NCBI RefSeq assembly: GCF_900291475.1
Contig: NZ_OLMM01000001.1
Coordinates: 66,142 to 128,499, forward strand
From: Acidaminococcus hominis
Lineage (GTDB): Bacteria; Bacillota; Negativicutes; Acidaminococcales; Acidaminococcaceae
Direction of reading: 5' to 3'
Length of the DNA stretch: 62,358 nucleotides
Numbering within the stretch: the stretch's first letter is position 1; the number at the start of each line of letters is the position of its first letter. This document shows, in pieces, positions 35,980 to 62,358 of this stretch. The position numbers were made by a program, and so were the translations under genes. The notes beneath the pieces were generated by a model. The model did not search any database, was not told the DNA's origin, and worked only from the letters and a program-made list of their open reading frames with translations.

Positions 35980-37389
35980 TTATGAGAACTTCTTTTTGCT
36001 TATATATTCATCTGCGAAGCCCTGACCTCTACGAGCAATAACATAACTTGCTCCTTGGTGAATAATGAGTTTCTTTCTGTCACAATATTTTTGCTTTGCA
36101 ATCTTGCTTGTATACGCAGGATTGACTTGAATCAAATTAACATTTCGTCTAAAACAACAATTTTCGAAAGTTTCCTTATATCTCGAATAGTCAAAGGCAT
36201 GAATTATTTTATTGTATGCCTTGCCTTGGGCTGACTTTGCTTTGATGACTTCTGACTTAGATTTTCTAAAGTCTAAATCTTCAATAACAATGTCTTTACC
36301 GACAGAAATTGCATAGTTTACAATCTTAGCAGTTATCTCTCGAATTTCGGACTTTGCTCTATTTCCCATACCATGATAATGCAAATCATAGTGTTTTAGC
36401 CCGACAAGATTTCCCGTTTCATTGGTCTCGGCAAGTTCGATAAAGCCATCATTGTAATCCAAGCCAATCGTTCCATACGTTTTTCGGGTCCTGTAGCTGT
36501 CGGTATCTATATCGAACGTTACCATAGCTTGCAGATAACACTTGCTGCCACGGAATACGATACGATAGCTAACGCCATGGCTTTTCTGTACAATGGTTTT
36601 TGCTAGCAAGCTGCTCATATACTTAAAAATACAAGCTCCATAAACGTACTCCCGAGCTTTTGTGTTCTTACGCAGCTGAATAACGAAACGATTACCTTTA
36701 CCCGAGTGTACCATTGGTGTTAGTTGCAGTATCTGATTACAGCGAAATTCATCCTTCGCTCCGATATACAAGGAACGATTATCTCTCTGCTCACGGAAAT
36801 GTTCCAGCCAGACCTTATGACTTGTCAGATTATTGTTTTCAAGATTATGCTGTGCATAAAACAGCTTCTTTGAGCCAAAGCAGAGATGCAAATCTTTGCT
36901 CTGAAGCTCTTTCAGCAGGTTAGCCTGCTTTTGTTTGAGGCGGTTAATCTTTTTACCCGTGTAAAAGATTTTTTCTTTTTTCCTGCGATAATATCTCAAA
37001 GCAGAAGGTGACAACTGATTGTTTCGAGCTTTTTCCTTCAAAGCAAATACTTGTTTACAAAGTTTATTCCGTTTACTGTAGAGTTTCGTTATTTTTCCAC
37101 TCAACTGCTTATACTCATACCATTTCAACTGATATAAGCCTCGATATAAACCCTCGACTTCAGAGATAACAGAATTAGCAAAACGCTTGTTTACTCCAAA
37201 TTGTATTTGTAAAAGCGTATTGAACTGGCTTTTCTTTACAGAAAACTTGCCGCCATTGTTATAACGATGCCACGCAAAGCGTAACATTCTGCCATAGAGA
37301 GCATTATACTCCTTGACGTATTTAATTAGATCAGCATTATCATTTTGATTGAGTCGTGTTTCAATCGTAAAAGTTTTAGAGACAATCAC
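35980..37389 (-). CDS. tnpB: TnpB-family RNA-guided nuclease-like protein
   Basis: 469 residues from GTG 37389 with GGAGGTGAT upstream. The N-terminal half is basic and helical (RNA-binding, coiled-coil near 100-170). LCFGSKKLF and the GAKDE region are typical of this TnpB branch. RuvC-I is GLDYNDG (Asp present) and RuvC-II is IVIEDLDF (Glu present). RuvC-III appears as IIHQGASYVIARRG, with no clear Asp at the usual D-x-x-NAA position. I see no CxxC zinc ribbon. It may be an active variant with a relocated third acid or a degenerate one. TnpB cleaves DNA under omega-RNA guidance and helps keep the element. Confidence 0.88.
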   Translation of the reverse strand: MIVSKTFTIETRLNQNDNADLIKYVKEYNALYGRMLRFAWHRYNNGGKFSVKKSQFNTLLQIQFGVNKRFANSVISEVEGLYRGLYQLKWYEYKQLSGKITKLYSKRNKLCKQVFALKEKARNNQLSPSALRYYRRKKEKIFYTGKKINRLKQKQANLLKELQSKDLHLCFGSKKLFYAQHNLENNNLTSHKVWLEHFREQRDNRSLYIGAKDEFRCNQILQLTPMVHSGKGNRFVIQLRKNTKAREYVYGACIFKYMSSLLAKTIVQKSHGVSYRIVFRGSKCYLQAMVTFDIDTDSYRTRKTYGTIGLDYNDGFIELAETNETGNLVGLKHYDLHYHGMGNRAKSEIREITAKIVNYAISVGKDIVIEDLDFRKSKSEVIKAKSAQGKAYNKIIHAFDYSRYKETFENCCFRRNVNLIQVNPAYTSKIAKQKYCDRKKLIIHQGASYVIARRGQGFADEYISKKKFS

Positions 37390-46976: not shown

Positions 46977-47005
46977 AGAAGCATTATGAAAAGGCGGTGA
47001 ATTGG

Positions 47006-47503
47006 ATGGAATTGTGGGACATTTATGACAGCAATAAGCAGCCTACCGGCCGCACCATGAAACGGAACGACTGGCATATGCAGGACGGAGATTACCACCT
47101 GACCGTGCTGGCCCTGGTGAAGACCCCGGAGGGCCGGCTGCTGATTACCCAGCGCAAAGCCGATAAAGAATGGGCACCCCTGAAATGGGAGATTCCCGGC
47201 GGCGGCGTGCGGGCCGGCGAAACCTCGGAAGAAGCCGTTTTGCGGGAAGTACAGGAAGAAACAGGTTTAAAAGTATTAAAGGAACAAGGCAAATTAATCC
47301 ATACATACCGGAACGATAGTCCGGAAGAACACAATAATTATTTCGTAGATATCTACCAGTTTATCCTGCCTTTTACCGCATCAGACGTGCATATCCAGGA
47401 AGATGAAGTCGAAACGTTCGAGATTTCAACCATCGATAATGTTCGGAAAATCGGAGAAAATGACGACTTTTTGCACTACAAACGATTAAAAAATCTATTA
47501 TAA
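47006..47503 (+). CDS. NUDIX hydrolase
   Basis: 165 residues from ATG 47006 (AAGGCGGTGA upstream; GTG 46997 is part of that site). The full NUDIX box GX5EX7REVXEEXGL is present as GGVRAGETSEEAVLREVQEE. The N-terminal ELWDIYDSNKQPTGRTM resembles the IPP isomerase/YfcD subgroup of NUDIX enzymes acting on alcohol diphosphates or nucleotides. Substrate unknown. hbd follows after 37 bases. Confidence 0.92.
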   Translation: MELWDIYDSNKQPTGRTMKRNDWHMQDGDYHLTVLALVKTPEGRLLITQRKADKEWAPLKWEIPGGGVRAGETSEEAVLREVQEETGLKVLKEQGKLIHTYRNDSPEEHNNYFVDIYQFILPFTASDVHIQEDEVETFEISTIDNVRKIGENDDFLHYKRLKNLL

Positions 47504-47540: not shown

Positions 47541-48437
47541 ATGAAAATTGCAAGAATTACCATTGCCGGTGCCGGCACCATGGGCTACTCCATGGCCGAA
47601 ATCTTTGCCCGTTTTGGCTACCAGGTGATTCTCTGGAACCATCGCCAGGCTACCCTGGATAAAGCCAAAACCAAGATTGCCCCGGAAGCAGCGGACAAAA
47701 TTACCTACACGACGGACAAGGCCGCTTTTGCGGACTGCGACCTGATTGTGGAAAATATCGTGGAAGACCTGGCCATCAAGCTGGATTTCTACAAGGAAAT
47801 CTCTGCCCTGGCCCGGAAGGACACCCTGATTGCTACCAATACTTCCGGCCTGTCCATCAACAAGCTGGCAGAGGCCGTGCAGGGGCCGCAACGGTTCCTG
47901 GGTATGCATTGGTTCAATCCGCCTACGCTGATTCCTCTGATTGAAATCATCAAAAATGACAAGACCAGCCCGGAAACCGCCCAGGCCATCTACGACCTGG
48001 CTCTGGCCATCCAAAAGAAGCCGGCAGTCATCGAAAAGGACGTGCCGGGCTTTGCTGCCAACCGGATTCAGCTGGCAGTGGTCCGGGAAGTCTGCCATAT
48101 GGTGGAGCAGGGGGTGGTCAGTGCCGAAGCCGCCGATGCCGTCATGAAGTACGGCCTGGGCTTCCGCTGGGCCTGCCTGGGACCTTTGGAAACCATGGAT
48201 TTTGGCGGCCTGGATATCTTTGCCGGGGTCAGTTCTTATCTGATGCCGGACCTGGCTGACGGCCACGAAGTGCCGACCATTCTCAAAGAAAAGGTGGACC
48301 GAGGTGACCTGGGGGTCAAGACCGGCAAAGGCTTTTACGACTACAGCAGCGGACGGGGAGAGGCGGCCAAGAAGGAGCGGGATAAAAAGCTCCAGGCCGT
48401 ATTCCAGGCCCTGTACGCGGCGAATAAAGCGAACTAA
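47541..48437 (+). CDS. 3-hydroxyacyl-CoA dehydrogenase family protein
   Basis: 298 residues. GAGTMGYSMAE is the NAD motif; GMHWFNPP holds the catalytic histidine; NTSGLSI and VPGFAANRIQ are family signatures, and the C-terminal dimer domain is complete. It matches the stand-alone bacterial type used in butyrate formation (3-hydroxybutyryl-CoA dehydrogenase). No other butyrate-pathway gene is beside it, so the substrate is uncertain and a gene symbol is not given. Confidence 0.9.
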   Translation: MKIARITIAGAGTMGYSMAEIFARFGYQVILWNHRQATLDKAKTKIAPEAADKITYTTDKAAFADCDLIVENIVEDLAIKLDFYKEISALARKDTLIATNTSGLSINKLAEAVQGPQRFLGMHWFNPPTLIPLIEIIKNDKTSPETAQAIYDLALAIQKKPAVIEKDVPGFAANRIQLAVVREVCHMVEQGVVSAEAADAVMKYGLGFRWACLGPLETMDFGGLDIFAGVSSYLMPDLADGHEVPTILKEKVDRGDLGVKTGKGFYDYSSGRGEAAKKERDKKLQAVFQALYAANKAN

Positions 48438-48528
48438 CGAAGTACTGCCAGACCGGCTTAGCTGGTTCAGGCAGCAGGCTGCGGGCCTATACCGCCGGCA
48501 GCCTTGGCAAGAAAGGGGGGACCAGGGA

Positions 48529-49221
48529 TTGTCCGAACGGATACCCATCCAATGTGAGGACTGCGGAGATTCCTGTCTGGAACACGTAGATTTCCTGGCG
48601 GGCCTGCCGGAAGAGAAAGTCCGGGGGCTCATGGCGCTGGCCCTGCGCAAGAAACAGAAAAAGGGCAGTTATATTTTCCAAGAAGATACGCCGGTGGATG
48701 CCATCTATGTAATCCACAAGGGGCGTGTAAAACTCAGTACCTACGACGGGGACGGCCGGGAGCAGATTGTAGGCATTTTTGCCGACCATGACACCATCTG
48801 GGAAGGGGCCTTTATTGACGGCAGCGTATTTCCTTATGGGGCCATGTGCCTGACGGATGTGGACTACTGCAAGCTATACCTGAAAGATTTTGAACGGGAA
48901 ATCCAGGAGCCGGAGATCGCGCTGAAGATTATTGGCCTCTTGAGCAAAAAACTCCACGACGCCAACCAGCGTAACCTGCTGCTGTCCATTGCTGAGCCCA
49001 AGGCCCGGATTGCCGGTTTTTTAGACTATCTCTACCGGCATCAGGCCGGGGACCTGGTGACCCTGCGCCTGGACGACATTGCCGCCAGCGTGCGCCTGCG
49101 GCCCGAGACCATCAGCCGGAAGCTCCAGGAGCTGGAACGGGAGGGTCTGATAAAGAAAGTGGGCCAAAGTGGTATGCAGCTTTTGAATGCTGCCGGGCTG
49201 AAAGCCTTGGCCAAACCCTAA
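48529..49221 (+). CDS. Crp/Fnr-family regulator with N-terminal cysteine cluster
   Basis: 230 residues from TTG 48529, chosen because AAAGGGGGG is 8 bases upstream and the known fold starts just after; the frame is open further upstream through hbd. CEDCGDSC near residue 8 gives C-x2-C-x3-C, and more cysteines follow in AMCLTDVDYC. This suggests an oxygen-sensing [4Fe-4S] cluster like FNR. The cyclic-nucleotide-type barrel (IYVIHKGRVKLSTYDGDGREQ) and the C-terminal winged helix (IAASVRLRPETISRKLQELE) are clear. Recognition-helix E and R fit TTGAT half-sites. pflA and pflB, each with such a site, follow. Confidence 0.92.
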   Translation: MSERIPIQCEDCGDSCLEHVDFLAGLPEEKVRGLMALALRKKQKKGSYIFQEDTPVDAIYVIHKGRVKLSTYDGDGREQIVGIFADHDTIWEGAFIDGSVFPYGAMCLTDVDYCKLYLKDFEREIQEPEIALKIIGLLSKKLHDANQRNLLLSIAEPKARIAGFLDYLYRHQAGDLVTLRLDDIAASVRLRPETISRKLQELEREGLIKKVGQSGMQLLNAAGLKALAKP

Positions 49222-49228
49222 GGAATGT

Positions 49229-49279
49229 TTGATTGTAATCAAAGATTCCGTTGACAAAATTTAGTAAAATGGCTATATA
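49229..49279 (+). promoter_or_regulatory. pflA promoter with perfect FNR box
   Basis: TTGAT-TGTA-ATCAA (49229-49242). TAAAAT (49265-49270) gives a start near 49277 and places the box centre at -41.5, the class II activator position. A second arrangement is TTGACA (49251-49256), 17 bases, TATATA (49274-49279), which would be activator-independent. Confidence 0.85.
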
Positions 49280-49330
49280 AAGGGGAGGGGTTGGACCCTC
49301 ACCCCCAATATATAGCCATTTTGTTTTACC
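49266..49330 (+). terminator. long stem-loop ending the crp/fnr unit, overlapping the pflA promoter
   Basis: AAAATGGCTATATA (49266-49279) pairs perfectly with TATATAGCCATTTT (49309-49322), with a GC-rich inner stem (GGGGAGGG against CCCTCACCCC) and TTTTGTTTTA at its 3' edge. Reading through from the regulator gene would produce a strong terminator hairpin. Confidence 0.8.
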
Positions 49331-49343
49331 AGGAGGTATAAAG

Positions 49344-50075
49344 ATGGTAAAAGGACGGATTCACTCCATTGAATCCTTTGGGTCCGTAGATGGGCCTGGG
49401 ACCCGCTTCATTATTTTCGTACAGGGGTGCAGCCTTCGCTGCCTATACTGCCACAATGCGGACACCTGGAATCTGGCAGGCGGTCAGGAAAAGACGGCCG
49501 ACGAACTGCTGAATCAGGCGGAACGCTATCGTCCCTACTGGGGACCGGAAGGCGGTATAACCGTGAGCGGCGGTGAGCCCCTGCTGCAATTAGATTTTCT
49601 TTTGGAACTGTTCCAGAAAGCCAAGGCAAGAGGCATCGGCACCTGTATCGACACGGCCGGTCAGCCCTTTACCCGGGAAGAGCCGTTTTTTGGCAAATTC
49701 CAGCAGCTGATGGAACTGACGGATATCCTGCTGATGGATATCAAGCACATTGACCCGGCAGCCCACAAAAAGCTCACTGGCAAGGACAATGCCAACATTG
49801 TGGACCTGTTCCATTACCTGGCAGAAATCGGCAAACCCATCTGGGTGCGTCAGGTACTGGTGCCCGGCTATACGGACGGCGAAGCGGATCTCCGGAAGAC
49901 CCGGGAATTCATCGCCAGCCTGCCCAATGTGCAGAAGGTGGAAGTGCTGCCCTACCACAGTATGGGCCAGTACAAATGGGAAACCCTGGGACTGCCTTAC
50001 GTACTCAAAGACGTAAAGCCACCCACGCCGGAACAAACGGAATGGGCCCAGAAGATCCTGGATGGACGGGGTTAA
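49344..50075 (+). CDS. pflA: pyruvate formate-lyase-activating enzyme
   Basis: 243 residues after AGGAGG. It is a radical SAM enzyme that abstracts hydrogen from the glycine of PflB. CSLRCLYCHN is the canonical CX3CX2C cluster motif near residue 30, preceded by IHSIESFGSVDGPGTR. VSGGEPLLQ and MDIKHIDP follow. Unlike E. coli, pflA is upstream of pflB, and each has its own FNR-type box. Confidence 0.96.
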   Translation: MVKGRIHSIESFGSVDGPGTRFIIFVQGCSLRCLYCHNADTWNLAGGQEKTADELLNQAERYRPYWGPEGGITVSGGEPLLQLDFLLELFQKAKARGIGTCIDTAGQPFTREEPFFGKFQQLMELTDILLMDIKHIDPAAHKKLTGKDNANIVDLFHYLAEIGKPIWVRQVLVPGYTDGEADLRKTREFIASLPNVQKVEVLPYHSMGQYKWETLGLPYVLKDVKPPTPEQTEWAQKILDGRG

Positions 50076-50095
50076 CATCGGTTTGAATGTAAACT

Positions 50096-50137
50096 TTGAT
50101 TCAAATCAAGGAAACCCGGCGGCAAGAAAGTTAGAAT
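50096..50137 (+). promoter_or_regulatory. pflB promoter with perfect FNR box
   Basis: TTGAT-TCAA-ATCAA (50096-50109) and TAGAAT (50132-50137). A start near 50144 puts the box centre at -41.5, as for pflA. Confidence 0.85.
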
Positions 50138-50187
50138 AAACCCATCGAGAACGGAAGACAAACAAAAACATTTTAAGGAGGATTTTC

Positions 50188-52467
50188 ATGAACAGCATTA
50201 CCCAAAGCATGGCATGGAGAGGCTTCAAAGGCGAAAAATGGACCGACGATGTAGACGTTAGAGAGTTCATCCAAAAGAACTACACCCCCTACGACGGGGA
50301 TGAAAGCTTCTTGGCTGGTCCTACCGAAGCCACCGATAAACTGTGGGGCAAAGTACAGGAACTGCAAAAAGAAGAACGGGCAAAAGGCGGCGTTCTGGAC
50401 TGCGAAACTGAAGTGGTTTCCAGCCTGACTGCTTACGGCCCTGGCTATATTGACGAATCCCTGAAGGATCTGGAACAAGTGGTTGGCCTGCAAACCGACA
50501 AACCCCTGAAACGTGCCTTCATGCCTTACGGCGGTATCAAAATGGCGGAAGAAGCTGCAGAAACCTACGGCTATCACGTAAACCCCAAGTTCCACAAAAT
50601 CTTCAACGAATACCACAAAACCCATAACCAGGCAGTATTTGATGCCTACACCCCGGAAATGAAGCGTGCCCGTCACAGCCACATCGTTACCGGCCTGCCC
50701 GACACCTACGGCCGCGGCCGTATCGTTGGCGACTACAGAAGAGTAGCCCTGTACGGTATCGATTTCCTGATTGAGAAGAAAAAAGCTGACCTGGCTATCT
50801 GCGGCTGCGGCATGATGACCGACGACATTATCCGTCAACGGGAAGAACTGGCTGAACAGATCCGTGCCCTGGGCCAAATGAAAGAAATGGCTGCAGTTTA
50901 TGGCTTCGACATTTCCAAACCGGCCACCAACGCCAAAGAAGCTGTACAATGGCTGTACTTCGGCTACCTGGCTGCCATCAAAACCCAGAACGGCGCTGCC
51001 ATGAGCGTAGGCCGTATCTCCACCTTCCTGGATATCTACATCACCCGTGACCTGAAGGAAGGCACCCTCACCGAACAGGAAGCCCAGGAACTGATCGACC
51101 ATCTGACCCTGAAATTCCGCATGGTGAAATTCGCCCGTATTCCTTCCTACAACCAGCTGTTCTCCGGCGACCCTGTATGGGCTACCCTGGAAGTAGCCGG
51201 CATTGGTATGGACGGCCGTCACATGGTTACCAAGAACGACTACCGCTTCCTGCATACCCTGGAAGACATGGGTCCTTCTCCTGAACCCAACCTGACCGTG
51301 CTGTATTCCTCCCAGCTGCCCAGCAACTTCAAGAAATACGCTGCCCATATCTCCGTCACCACTTCCTCCATCCAATACGAAAATGATGACGTGATGAAAC
51401 CCGTTTGGGGCGACGACTACAGCATCTGCTGCTGCGTATCCGCTACCCAGACCGGTAAGGAAATGCAGTTCTTCGGCGCCAGAGCCAACCTGGGCAAATG
51501 CCTGCTGTATGCCATCAATGGCGGTAAGGACGAAAAATTCCTGACCAAAGACGGCAAACATATGCAGGTAGGTCCGGAATATGCTCCCATCACCTCTGAA
51601 GTGCTGGACTACGATGAAGTTATGCATAAATACGATCTGATGATGGACTGGCTGGCTGGCCTGTATGTCAACATCCTGAACCTGATCCAATACATGCACG
51701 ACAAATACTACTACGAAGCTGCCCAAATGGCCCTGATCGATACCGATGTAAGAAGAACCTTCGCTACCGGTATTGCAGGCTTCTCCCATGTAGTTGACTC
51801 CCTGTGCGCCATTAAATACGCCAAGGTTTCCACCGTGCGTGACGAATCCGGCCTGGTTGTGGACTATAAGATTGAAGGGGACTTCCCGCGCTTCGGCAAC
51901 GACGATCCCCGGGCTGACGAAATTGCAGTATGGCTGCTGAAGACCTTCATGAACAAGATCCGCAAGTACCATACCTACCGCAACTCCGAACCCACCACCT
52001 CCATCCTGACCATTACCTCCAACGTAGTATATGGCAAGGCTACCGGCGCTATGCCTGACGGCAGAAAAGCCTACGCTCCGTTTGCACCTGGCGCTAACCC
52101 CGCCTACGGCGCAGAACAAAACGGCCTCTTGGCTTCCCTGAACTCCGTAGCCAAACTGCCGTACGAATACGCTCTGGATGGTATCTCCAACACCCAGACC
52201 ATCAGCCCTGAAACCCTGGGCCACAGCGAACCCGAACAAAAGGAATCCCTGGTACGGGTTATGGACGGTTACTTTGACCAAGGCGCTCACCACCTGAACG
52301 TAAACGTGTTCGGCGTGGAAAAACTCATCGACTGCATGGAACATCCGGAAAAACCTGAATACGCCAACTTCACCATCCGCGTATCCGGTTACGCCGTGAA
52401 ATTCATCGACCTGACCAAAGAACAACAGCTGGACGTTATCGCCCGGAGAGCCCACAAGGCCATGTAA
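50188..52467 (+). CDS. pflB: formate acetyltransferase (pyruvate formate-lyase)
   Basis: 759 residues, the length of E. coli PflB. It splits pyruvate into formate and acetyl-CoA with a glycyl radical. The active-site cysteines lie in [17 protein letters not shown] near residue 413, where three cysteines in a row stand in place of the usual two. RVSGYAVKF near residue 735 holds the radical glycine. Codon choice is visibly biased to a few codons, as in highly expressed genes. AAGGAGG precedes the ATG. A strong terminator follows. Confidence 0.97.
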
Positions 52468-52506
52468 GAAACCGCCTTCTTTTGAAGGTTGGAAATAGAA
52501 TAAAAG

Positions 52507-52550
52507 GCAGTCCCCTGAAACCAGAACGGTTTTGGGGGACTGCTTTTTTT
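52507..52550 (+). terminator. rho-independent terminator of pflB
   Basis: GCAGTCCCC pairs with GGGGACTGC with AAACC/GGTTT inside, followed by seven T. Confidence 0.93.
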
Positions 52551-52723
52551 GTCGTTAATGTTGGGGTGGCACTGCCGGGTGCAAGGGCAGCTGTAACCTT
52601 GCTTTGCAGGACAGACCGGTCGGCAGGGGAGGGGGAATGCACCCTTTCTCGACTCCTTAGGGCCAAGAGTCTGCGGCCCGATGCTTTATTACTACTTAAC
52701 TGCATGAACCAAGGTGAATATAA
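52551..52723. other. intergenic region without recognisable gene
   Basis: I see no gene, promoter or repeat here that I can support. An open frame crossing it from 52482 runs through two terminators and lacks similarity. Confidence 0.6.
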
Positions 52724-52760
52724 AAAAGAACCGTACGATCAGCTCTCGTACGGTTCTTTT
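52724..52760. terminator. bidirectional terminator facing the symporter gene
   Basis: AAAAGAACCGTACGA pairs with TCGTACGGTTCTTTT around a short loop. In the minus direction it lies 26 bases after the symporter stop. Confidence 0.88.
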
Positions 52761-52785
52761 AGATTTAATTTTCTAAATTTCTTTC

Positions 52786-54105
52786 TTACACTTCCAGCGC
52801 CGGTTCATTGTTGTCATCATCGTCATCCAGTTCGTCGGCCAGGTCGTGGTTGGTCATGGCGCAGACAGCGGAGTCGGACCATACGTTTTCAGCGGTTTCC
52901 ACCATATCAATGATGGTGTAGATGGGCAGGATAATCCCCATGATGCCAATGGGCGCGCCCACCGAGGACATCAGGGACAGGGTCAGGAAGTAGCAGCCCA
53001 TAGGAACGCCGGCGTTGCCTACCGCAGCCAGTACCGCCACAAAGAGCCAGCCAATCATGCCGCTGAGAGTCAGTTCCATGCCTCCATTTTGCATCAGAAA
53101 CAGGGAGGTAACCAGAATAAAGGCAGCGCAGCCGTTCATATTGATAGTGGTGCAGATGGGCAGCACGAAGCGGGATACCTGCTTGTGGGCGTGCATATTT
53201 TCTTCCGCACAGGCCAGGGTTACCGGCAGGGTGCCAGCGGAACTCTTGGTGAAAAGCGCCACCGCAATGGCCGGAGCCATCTTGCGGAACACGTGCAGCG
53301 GATTCAGCCCCCGGGCTGCCAAAAACAGCGGAATCACAAGGAAGAACTGAATCAGGTTGCCAGCCAGGATAACCAGGGTGTATTTGCCGATGGCCCCTAC
53401 AATGACCCCAGCTTCAATCTGGGAGGACAGCTGGGCTGCGAAAGCCAGGATGCCTACGGGCAATACCCACAGCAGGGCACGGATCAGGGTAAAAAGCAGT
53501 TCTTCCAAACCGTGAATCCCTTTTAGGAGGACTTCCCGGTTTTCCGTCTTGGGCATAAAGGCTAGCGCCAGGCCTGAAGCGGCAGCAATCAGCATGACGG
53601 AAAGCACGTTGCCGGACAGGAAAGGCTGGAGAATGTTATTGGGAATAACCGACAGGAAATGTTCGTAGTACGATACCTTTTCCAGCTTTTGCGGCACAGC
53701 CGCCGTACCCTGATTGATCAGCTCCAAAGGCAGGTTGCCGGGAGCAATCCAGAGATAGAGCAGCAGGCCGATAGCCGCGGCACAGATGGTGGTCAGCAGA
53801 GTGTAGGTGACAGCATGGGCGAAGATGCGGCCCGTTTCCTTTTTGCCGCCCAAAGCCGACAGGGTGGTAATGACCGCCAGGGCGATGGTGGGAACTGCAA
53901 TAAATTGGAATAAACGTGTGAATACCGTGGCAATAAAGTTGAAAAGCTGATTCAGCGCCGGAATCCCCAGCCAGCCCAGAATAGTTCCTGCCACCAGTGC
54001 CCCAAGCCATAGGGCCAACTGACGGTTGTTCTTGTGGGCCCGGCTGCCGTGAATGATTTCACGGGCCTGCTCCCGGACCTGGTCTTTCTGTTCCGCATTA
54101 GACAT
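52786..54105 (-). CDS. dicarboxylate/amino acid:cation symporter (DAACS family)
   Basis: 439 residues from ATG 54105 with AAAAGGGG upstream; the open frame extends to 54249 through the promoter and is not coding there. Eight or more membrane segments. FTKSSAGTLPVTLACAEEN is the serine-rich re-entrant loop and ICTTINMNGCAAF the NMDG-type cation/substrate site (N-M-N-G here). It imports glutamate, aspartate, serine or C4-dicarboxylates with Na+ or H+. Glutamate would suit an amino-acid fermenter, but this is inference. The C-terminus ends in a DDDDDNN stretch. Confidence 0.92.
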   Translation of the reverse strand: MSNAEQKDQVREQAREIIHGSRAHKNNRQLALWLGALVAGTILGWLGIPALNQLFNFIATVFTRLFQFIAVPTIALAVITTLSALGGKKETGRIFAHAVTYTLLTTICAAAIGLLLYLWIAPGNLPLELINQGTAAVPQKLEKVSYYEHFLSVIPNNILQPFLSGNVLSVMLIAAASGLALAFMPKTENREVLLKGIHGLEELLFTLIRALLWVLPVGILAFAAQLSSQIEAGVIVGAIGKYTLVILAGNLIQFFLVIPLFLAARGLNPLHVFRKMAPAIAVALFTKSSAGTLPVTLACAEENMHAHKQVSRFVLPICTTINMNGCAAFILVTSLFLMQNGGMELTLSGMIGWLFVAVLAAVGNAGVPMGCYFLTLSLMSSVGAPIGIMGIILPIYTIIDMVETAENVWSDSAVCAMTNHDLADELDDDDDNNEPALEV

Positions 54106-62130: not shown

Positions 62131-62358
62131 GGGTGTCGCACAACGTGCGACGGGAAGGGCCGGTGCCACCTGCGCCCGCATGCGTGCGAGGTCAGTTACT
62201 TGAACAAATCCGCAATAATAATATATTTTGTGCTGCTTAGCTCCTTCCACATTGTGCTCAAAAATAAGTAATTTTAGAAACGTGGTAGTGCCTTATAGTT
62301 GACATCCATCAAGTGTGAGGGAGGTGGCGCCGGGAGGCGACGAAGAGAGTTTTCAAAG
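62131..62358. other. right edge, no recognisable gene
   Basis: A small hairpin (GTCGCAC/GTGCGAC, about 62148-62164) is visible. Nothing else is supported before the window ends. Confidence 0.5.

Follow-up and report, generated by a model that had tools for sequence, protein, structure and literature searches.

A candidate local iron-sulfur switch at pflA and pflB of Acidaminococcus hominis, formed by a CRP/FNR-type regulator and two FNR-type boxes

Is a CRP/FNR-type regulator that is encoded next to the genes of the pyruvate formate-lyase (PFL) system the oxygen switch of just these genes? The question is raised by a stretch of 62,358 nucleotides from Acidaminococcus hominis (contig NZ_OLMM01000001.1, positions 66,142 to 128,499), called the window below. 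Positions 48529-52467 of its + strand carry a CRP/FNR-superfamily gene, then pflA and then pflB, and each pfl gene is preceded by a perfect FNR-type box. The PFL system is oxygen-labile. We consider it likely that the regulator is a dedicated FNR-like activator which controls its neighbors pflA and pflB as an iron-sulfur/oxygen switch acting through the two boxes. A preliminary description made from the letters of this DNA had proposed such a circuit; its observation is confirmed and its interpretation is partly supported. The features concerned are the following.

48529-49221, + strand: CRP/FNR-superfamily regulator, 230 amino acids, TTG start (Pfam cNMP_binding, PF00027, 60.2 bits, cut-off 27.5; HTH_Crp_2, PF13545, 43.5 bits, cut-off 27)
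49222-49249, no strand assigned: near-perfect palindrome of 28 bp with 13-nt arms, 92% complementary, containing the pflA box (inverted-repeat search, I2)
49229-49242, + strand: FNR-type box of pflA, TTGATTGTAATCAA, perfect TTGATN4ATCAA (motif scan)
49265-49270, + strand: predicted −10 of pflA, TAAAAT, 22 nt after the box (hexamer spacing)
49344-50075, + strand: pflA, pyruvate formate-lyase-activating enzyme, a radical S-adenosylmethionine protein (TIGR02493 309.6 bits, cut-off 231.75)
50096-50109, + strand: FNR-type box of pflB, TTGATTCAAATCAA, perfect TTGATN4ATCAA (motif scan)
50132-50137, + strand: predicted −10 of pflB, TAGAAT, 22 nt after the box (hexamer spacing)
50188-52467, + strand: pflB, formate C-acetyltransferase (pyruvate formate-lyase; TIGR01255 1152.2 bits, cut-off 994.2)

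The regulator and the two boxes

The Pfam and NCBIfam matches bear out that the regulator adjoins pflA and pflB, and both Pfam matches of the regulator place it in the CRP/FNR superfamily. The coordinates and the motif given in the preliminary description for the boxes at 49229 and 50096 are correct. Dinucleotide-shuffled versions of the window contained a mean of 0.055 perfect boxes, and two or more occurred in 1 of 200 shuffles, so that a pair of perfect boxes in a single window is unexpected. The distance from box to −10 hexamer is 22 nt at both genes. If +1 is taken as the seventh base after the hexamer, giving predicted starts at 49277 for pflA and 50144 for pflB, both box centers fall at −41.5, as had been claimed, and both boxes occupy the class-II position relative to these predicted start sites. 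A consensus promoter scan of 48400-52800, which required T at the sixth position of the −10 and a −35 hexamer, gave no + strand promoter.

Four cysteines of the regulator stand out, namely C9-x2-C12-x3-C16 at the N-terminus and C114. All four are invariant in the 11 orthologues described below, among which other cysteine positions, such as C107 of the window protein, vary, and C114 aligns with C122 of E. coli FNR. The N-terminal spacing C-x2-C-x3-C, which the preliminary description had set apart from the C-x2-C-x5-C of E. coli FNR, is real and is kept in 11/11 orthologues. In E. coli FNR (sequence from NC_000913) the corresponding residues are C20, C23 and C29, which are cluster ligands. The recognition helix reads ETISR in the window and ETISR or ETVSR throughout the orthologues, and such an E-x-x-S-R helix is expected for TTGAT half-sites. 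With these sequence features side by side, transcription of pflA and pflB is probably coupled to the regulator.

The genome of 2.6 Mb holds ten perfect boxes, against none for a reversed control pattern. Four are copies in 16S-23S rRNA spacers and two are those of pflA and pflB. Of the other four, one falls within a phage-like region, one at a transposase-like start, one close to a hypothetical gene and one between genes of LysR-type and aminotransferase-like character, as judged by reading the open reading frames (ORFs). On reading these sites, only the pfl pair combines gene, distance and −10, and the earlier view of the circuit as local is supported in that just these two of the ten perfect boxes look like promoter sites. 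Relaxing the pattern to TTGAYN4RTCAA raised the count to 26, against 6 in the reversed control. By the same kind of reading, the 16 added sites comprise eight in a repeated intergenic element, three in a repeated ORF of about 469 amino acids, four inside other ORFs, and one intergenic site near an ArsR-like ORF. A global FNR regulon in this genome was rejected, as no other convincing site was present among the 26; two further sites, C7:674054 (LysR/aminotransferase) and C9:25685 (near the ArsR-like ORF), are possible but unsupported.

The genome has six HTH_Crp_2 matches, one of which is the regulator. Three of the other five are CRP/FNR-type proteins (L015, L017, L018) whose helix is not E-x-x-S-R, and two read as GntR-like (L019) and IclR-like (L020). 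Within this HTH_Crp_2 search the regulator is the only protein of the genome with an E-x-x-S-R helix.

The two repeated sequences were also noted in their own right. The site TTGACTTGAATCAA or its complement lies inside the repeated ORF, perhaps a transposase, at 36122-36135 and in L106, L108 and L118, the genome having three copies. The intergenic element, which combines GGCGCC and similar flanks with TTGAC/T palindromes, is found at 62299-62312 and in L110, L112-L114, L117, L119 and L120, and looks like a dispersed repeat of the repetitive extragenic palindromic (REP) kind.

Conservation of the locus across genomes

Eleven orthologues of the regulator were found. Seven are from Acidaminococcus, the window included, and two from another family of the class (G139 and G242, from a search of 380 class genomes). 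Two are from more distant Bacillota: G519, from a phylum search of 398 genomes drawn evenly from the larger group, and the uncultured Clostridiales RUG074 (OMXW01000046.1), the one locus given by a contig scan reaching close relatives. In the class and phylum searches up to seven candidates per genome were scored, and absence there is not strict. In a tree with five other CRP/FNR proteins from the phylum, the 11 orthologues group separately as a single clade (100/100). Within the genus, 7/9 genomes have an orthologue, the six besides the window's own being 51-57% identical to it. The same seven have a PFL above the cut-off, and the remaining two lack both: G002 has a weak PFL match of 121 bits versus 994, and G005 has none. 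This co-occurrence supports the proposed local circuit.

At all 11 orthologue loci pflA and pflB lie beside the regulator, and at least one of the two genes is preceded by a box. A pflA box with 0-2 mismatches is present at ten loci, the exception being G519, where pflA starts 18 bp after the regulator. The pflB box is likewise present (0-2 mismatches) at ten, the exception being RUG074 with the order box-pflA-pflB-regulator. The box to −10 distance is 22 nt at every one of the ten box-bearing pflA promoters and at nine of the ten pflB promoters; the tenth, from G519, has TAATAT at 22 nt, but GATAAT at 20 was preferred by the scoring.

As controls, 330 bp were scanned at 30 PFL loci from the family of G242, in which 50 of 151 searched genomes have a PFL above the cut-off. 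The best match had 2-4 mismatches at all 26 loci outside the box clade and 0-1 at the four inside it (G137, G138, G139 and G242). In the window's own family, G042, G029 and G021, which have pflA above the cut-off, adjoining pflB and no orthologue, gave 3-4 mismatches. A PFL tree of 41 rows, built without the partly read G519 and with a long-branch warning for G029, placed the 12 box-bearing PFLs in one clade (99/99). The four PFLs of the other family are nested inside the Acidaminococcus group, and the window branches outside them (95/90). This nesting points to transfer of the whole regulator-pflA-pflB unit between families.

Some observations stand beside these comparisons. The top identity to an orthologue is 56-57% for the regulator and 93% for PflB, so the regulator evolves much faster than its target. 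In G138 (L172), which has no pflA box, and in G137 (L173), a Nudix gene precedes pflA. G042 carries a perfect box TTGATTAAAATCAA (L028 1416-1429; L127 3605-3618) in the gap between the gene of a different, 27%-identical CRP/FNR protein and the 227-amino-acid ORF that follows it on the same strand and begins about 105 nt after the box.

Relation to FNR, proposed mechanism and alternative explanations

Comparison with known systems indicates how far the likeness to FNR goes. With E. coli FNR (NP_415850.1) and Aliivibrio fischeri FNR (PDB 5E44/5CVR) the regulator shares the CRP-type domains, the box TTGATNNNNATCAA, the helix ETISR, three N-terminal cysteines plus one at the C122 position, the class-II −41.5 geometry and pfl targets; the pfl genes of E. 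coli are controlled by FNR. The differences are the C-x2-C-x3-C spacing as opposed to C-x2-C-x5-C, seven residues fewer in the 180-190 loop, and a score of 44.5 as opposed to 228 bits. Moreover FNR commands a global regulon, whereas here there are apparently two target promoters and the regulator gene is linked to them. In a sequence search of the PDB, FNR entries ranked below other CRP-family chains, and the N-terminal half alone gave no FNR match at E 0.01. A structure prediction (window protein and L005) was set aside at a mean predicted local distance difference test score of 38.7. Bacillus Fnr is also an oxygen-linked iron-sulfur regulator of Bacillota in the CRP/FNR superfamily, as is predicted here, but its cluster is placed in the C-terminal DNA-binding domain in a passage of PMC12937710, whereas the cysteines here are N-terminal. 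FlpS of Streptococcus suis and its FLP relatives resemble the regulator in being FNR-like and in governing fermentative metabolism; FlpS differs in having two N-terminal cysteines, as given in part of PMC5039431. Two other Bacillota CRP/FNR proteins, L131 and L132, share an N-terminal cysteine group and an ET-x-SR helix, but are 24-32% identical to this subfamily and fall outside its clade (100/100). Since they carry C-x2-C-x4-C, departure from C-x2-C-x5-C is in itself not unusual among Bacillota CRP/FNR proteins; they are single examples from a survey of the + strand ORFs of 55 loci. Taken together, the regulator would work like FNR but is not classed as FNR proper, on account of its cysteine spacing, its NCBIfam score and the coupling loop.

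In the mechanism that we infer from the sequences, a regulator dimer would be kept active under anoxia by an iron-sulfur cluster on C9, C12, C16 and C114, would bind both TTGATN4ATCAA boxes at −41.5, and would recruit RNA polymerase at both promoters in the class-II manner. Oxygen would destroy the cluster, and transcription of pflA and pflB would stop. The hairpin that spans the pflA start (see below) may end transcripts arriving from the regulator gene. Those begun at the box-dependent promoter would start inside its 5′ arm, lose the closing pairs beside the T-run and pass, leaving pflA dependent on its own promoter. That the circuit protects the enzyme, as stated in the preliminary description, is an interpretation of purpose and goes beyond what the sequence says. 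The sensitivity to oxygen may, more speculatively, differ within the subfamily. The residue after the second cysteine is Arg in G001, G003, G004 and G139 and Gly in the window, and a passage of PMC4505428 describes aerobic activity of FNR S24R, taken as cluster stabilization; the parallel is the more speculative as the loop here is shorter.

Several findings weigh against an FNR-like switch at these promoters. The regulator scores 44.5 bits with the NCBIfam FNR model NF008365, far below its cut-off of 228, and also falls short of the FnrL model NF045989 (42.8 versus 300 bits). In the sequence alignment all 11 orthologues have a gap of seven residues in the 180-190 loop, opposite E. coli FNR residues about 185-191; in A. 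fischeri FNR this loop contacts the cluster loop, according to a passage of PMC12937710. By eye, pflA also has a competing promoter-like pair, TTGACA at 49251-49256 and, after 17 nt, TATATA at 49274-49279. The spacing counts are weakened by the way in which they were obtained, as the −10 used was the top-scoring one at 18-26 nt from the best-matching box, and the promoters are homologous, so that the box counts are non-independent events. They represent a smaller number of independent lineages, namely the window, the main clade of Acidaminococcus together with G139 and G242, RUG074, and G519. Boxes with two mismatches occur in 11/26 control loci, and for this reason the three two-mismatch boxes of the set (G008 pflA, G006 pflA and G004 pflB) rest on their spacing. 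Finally, both boxes are present in G137, and the pflB box in G138, although neither genome has an orthologue of the regulator, which also speaks against transfer of the whole unit. These two genomes, of the same genus as G139, gave regulator matches of at most 26 bits with all candidates scored, and they also lack the dehydrogenase gene that adjoins the regulator elsewhere. Boxes can therefore persist without the regulator.

This last finding would suit an arrangement in which the boxes serve a different CRP/FNR protein of the cell and not the neighbor. However, regulator and box occur together at all 11 orthologue loci, and none of the other HTH_Crp_2 CRP/FNR-type proteins of the window's genome has the E-x-x-S-R helix, so we regard such use as the least probable of the explanations considered. 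Hardly more probable is that the neighbor is a cluster-free, constitutive CRP/FNR-type activator whose cysteines have a structural role or ligate a different metal, the boxes serving strong expression. Against it, exactly these four cysteines are invariant in the 11 orthologues, whereas others such as C107 vary. An activator circuit of the same layout that responds to nitric oxide, to iron or sulfur supply or to thiol redox state instead of oxygen is unlikely, though less so than either of these. The cysteine spacing and the seven missing residues suggest signal transfer unlike that of FNR, and Acidaminococcus fermentans is described as anaerobic in part of PMC3035267, so that oxygen is perhaps rarely met; FNR and Pseudomonas putida ANR also respond to micromolar nitric oxide, according to a passage of PMC4505428. 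On the other side stand the four conserved cysteines, including the one at the FNR C122 position. Moreover, the enzyme system of which both targets are part is established as oxygen-labile, and this favors the iron-sulfur/oxygen switch.

In this fermenting anaerobe an FNR-like protein appears to be reduced to a two-promoter local device serving a single oxygen-labile radical enzyme, and the device seems to travel with PFL between bacterial families. Recurrence of the gene package in other bacteria suggests a self-contained control unit and not a global oxygen regulon. A more specific version is that the locus is a horizontally exchanged oxygen-control cassette for PFL, with a compact C-x2-C-x3-C loop, no FNR coupling loop, pflA and pflB as its only targets and a terminator-insulated pflA; we put this forward tentatively and with some doubt. 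The locus would offer a minimal system in which to study the role of such a sensor in an anaerobe, the lower limit of cluster-loop length, and the possibility that a start site placed within a terminator arm serves as a gate against read-through. Among open-access titles and abstract openings (subscription literature apart) we found no paper on this regulator, on a Negativicutes FNR regulon or on a terminator-straddling pfl promoter; the regulator-PFL linkage and the start-site hairpin are probably what a specialist would find new.

The pflA leader hairpin and neighboring genes

The start-site hairpin is a side result, suggestive of a possible insulation of pflA.

49265-49323, + strand: long inverted repeat or terminator-like hairpin, its 5′ arm holding the −10 and the predicted pflA start, with T-rich TTTTGTTTT at the 3′ side

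Its outer stem of 15 bp begins at the pflA −10 itself. Positions 49258-49345 fold at −35.3 kcal/mol (z −4.33, reached by 0/200 shuffles); a terminator scan confined to loops of 3-8 did not list the hairpin. Among 11 pflA and 11 pflB promoters, compared without G519, an uninterrupted stem of 6-12 bp located 0-4 nt after the −10 and ending near a T-run was present at eight pflA promoters, and a ninth (G137) has a weaker stem at 14 nt. The pflA promoters of G006 and RUG074 and all 11 pflB promoters have no such stem. The stem sequence of the window is unlike those of its relatives, though the position is the same. An RNA begun at the predicted +1 would lose the outer pairs, and folding in the window changes from −34.7 to −20.0 kcal/mol. 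In RUG074 the ORF upstream runs in the opposite direction and there is no hairpin, which fits insulation against read-through.

Other results speak against insulation. G006 has the regulator upstream and yet no hairpin; the shortened RNAs of the relatives, RUG074 apart, retain folding energies of −7.2 to −30.6 kcal/mol; and the rule used for the stems is permissive, since per 100 shuffled sequences it was matched by 2-38 for the pflA segments and by 0-3 for pflB. A repeat element as the source of the hairpin was rejected, the arm (at most two mismatches) occurring in the window only at its own two places, a result for the window and not genome-wide. The TATATA hexamer of the alternative pflA promoter also lies inside the hairpin arm, and the pflA leaders of the relatives compared have no TTGACA at the corresponding place. 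A search of 48400-50300 for known RNA families gave none at the gathering threshold.

The regulator's TTG start at 48529 is preceded by AAAGGGGGG, and most orthologues have ATG at this place, those of the same length among them. On its 5′ side lies a further gene.

47541-48437, + strand: 3-hydroxyacyl-CoA dehydrogenase-type gene, 5′ neighbor of the regulator (Pfam 3HCDH_N/3HCDH)

This gene is retained in several relatives and missing in others. In the window it is separate from a Nudix hydrolase gene (46997-47503). L022 and L023 have instead a single ORF of 462 amino acids (110-1498) with a Nudix-like beginning and an end that overlaps the regulator start. Its length is compatible with a fusion of Nudix and dehydrogenase parts, and L122 has an ORF of 524 amino acids at that place.
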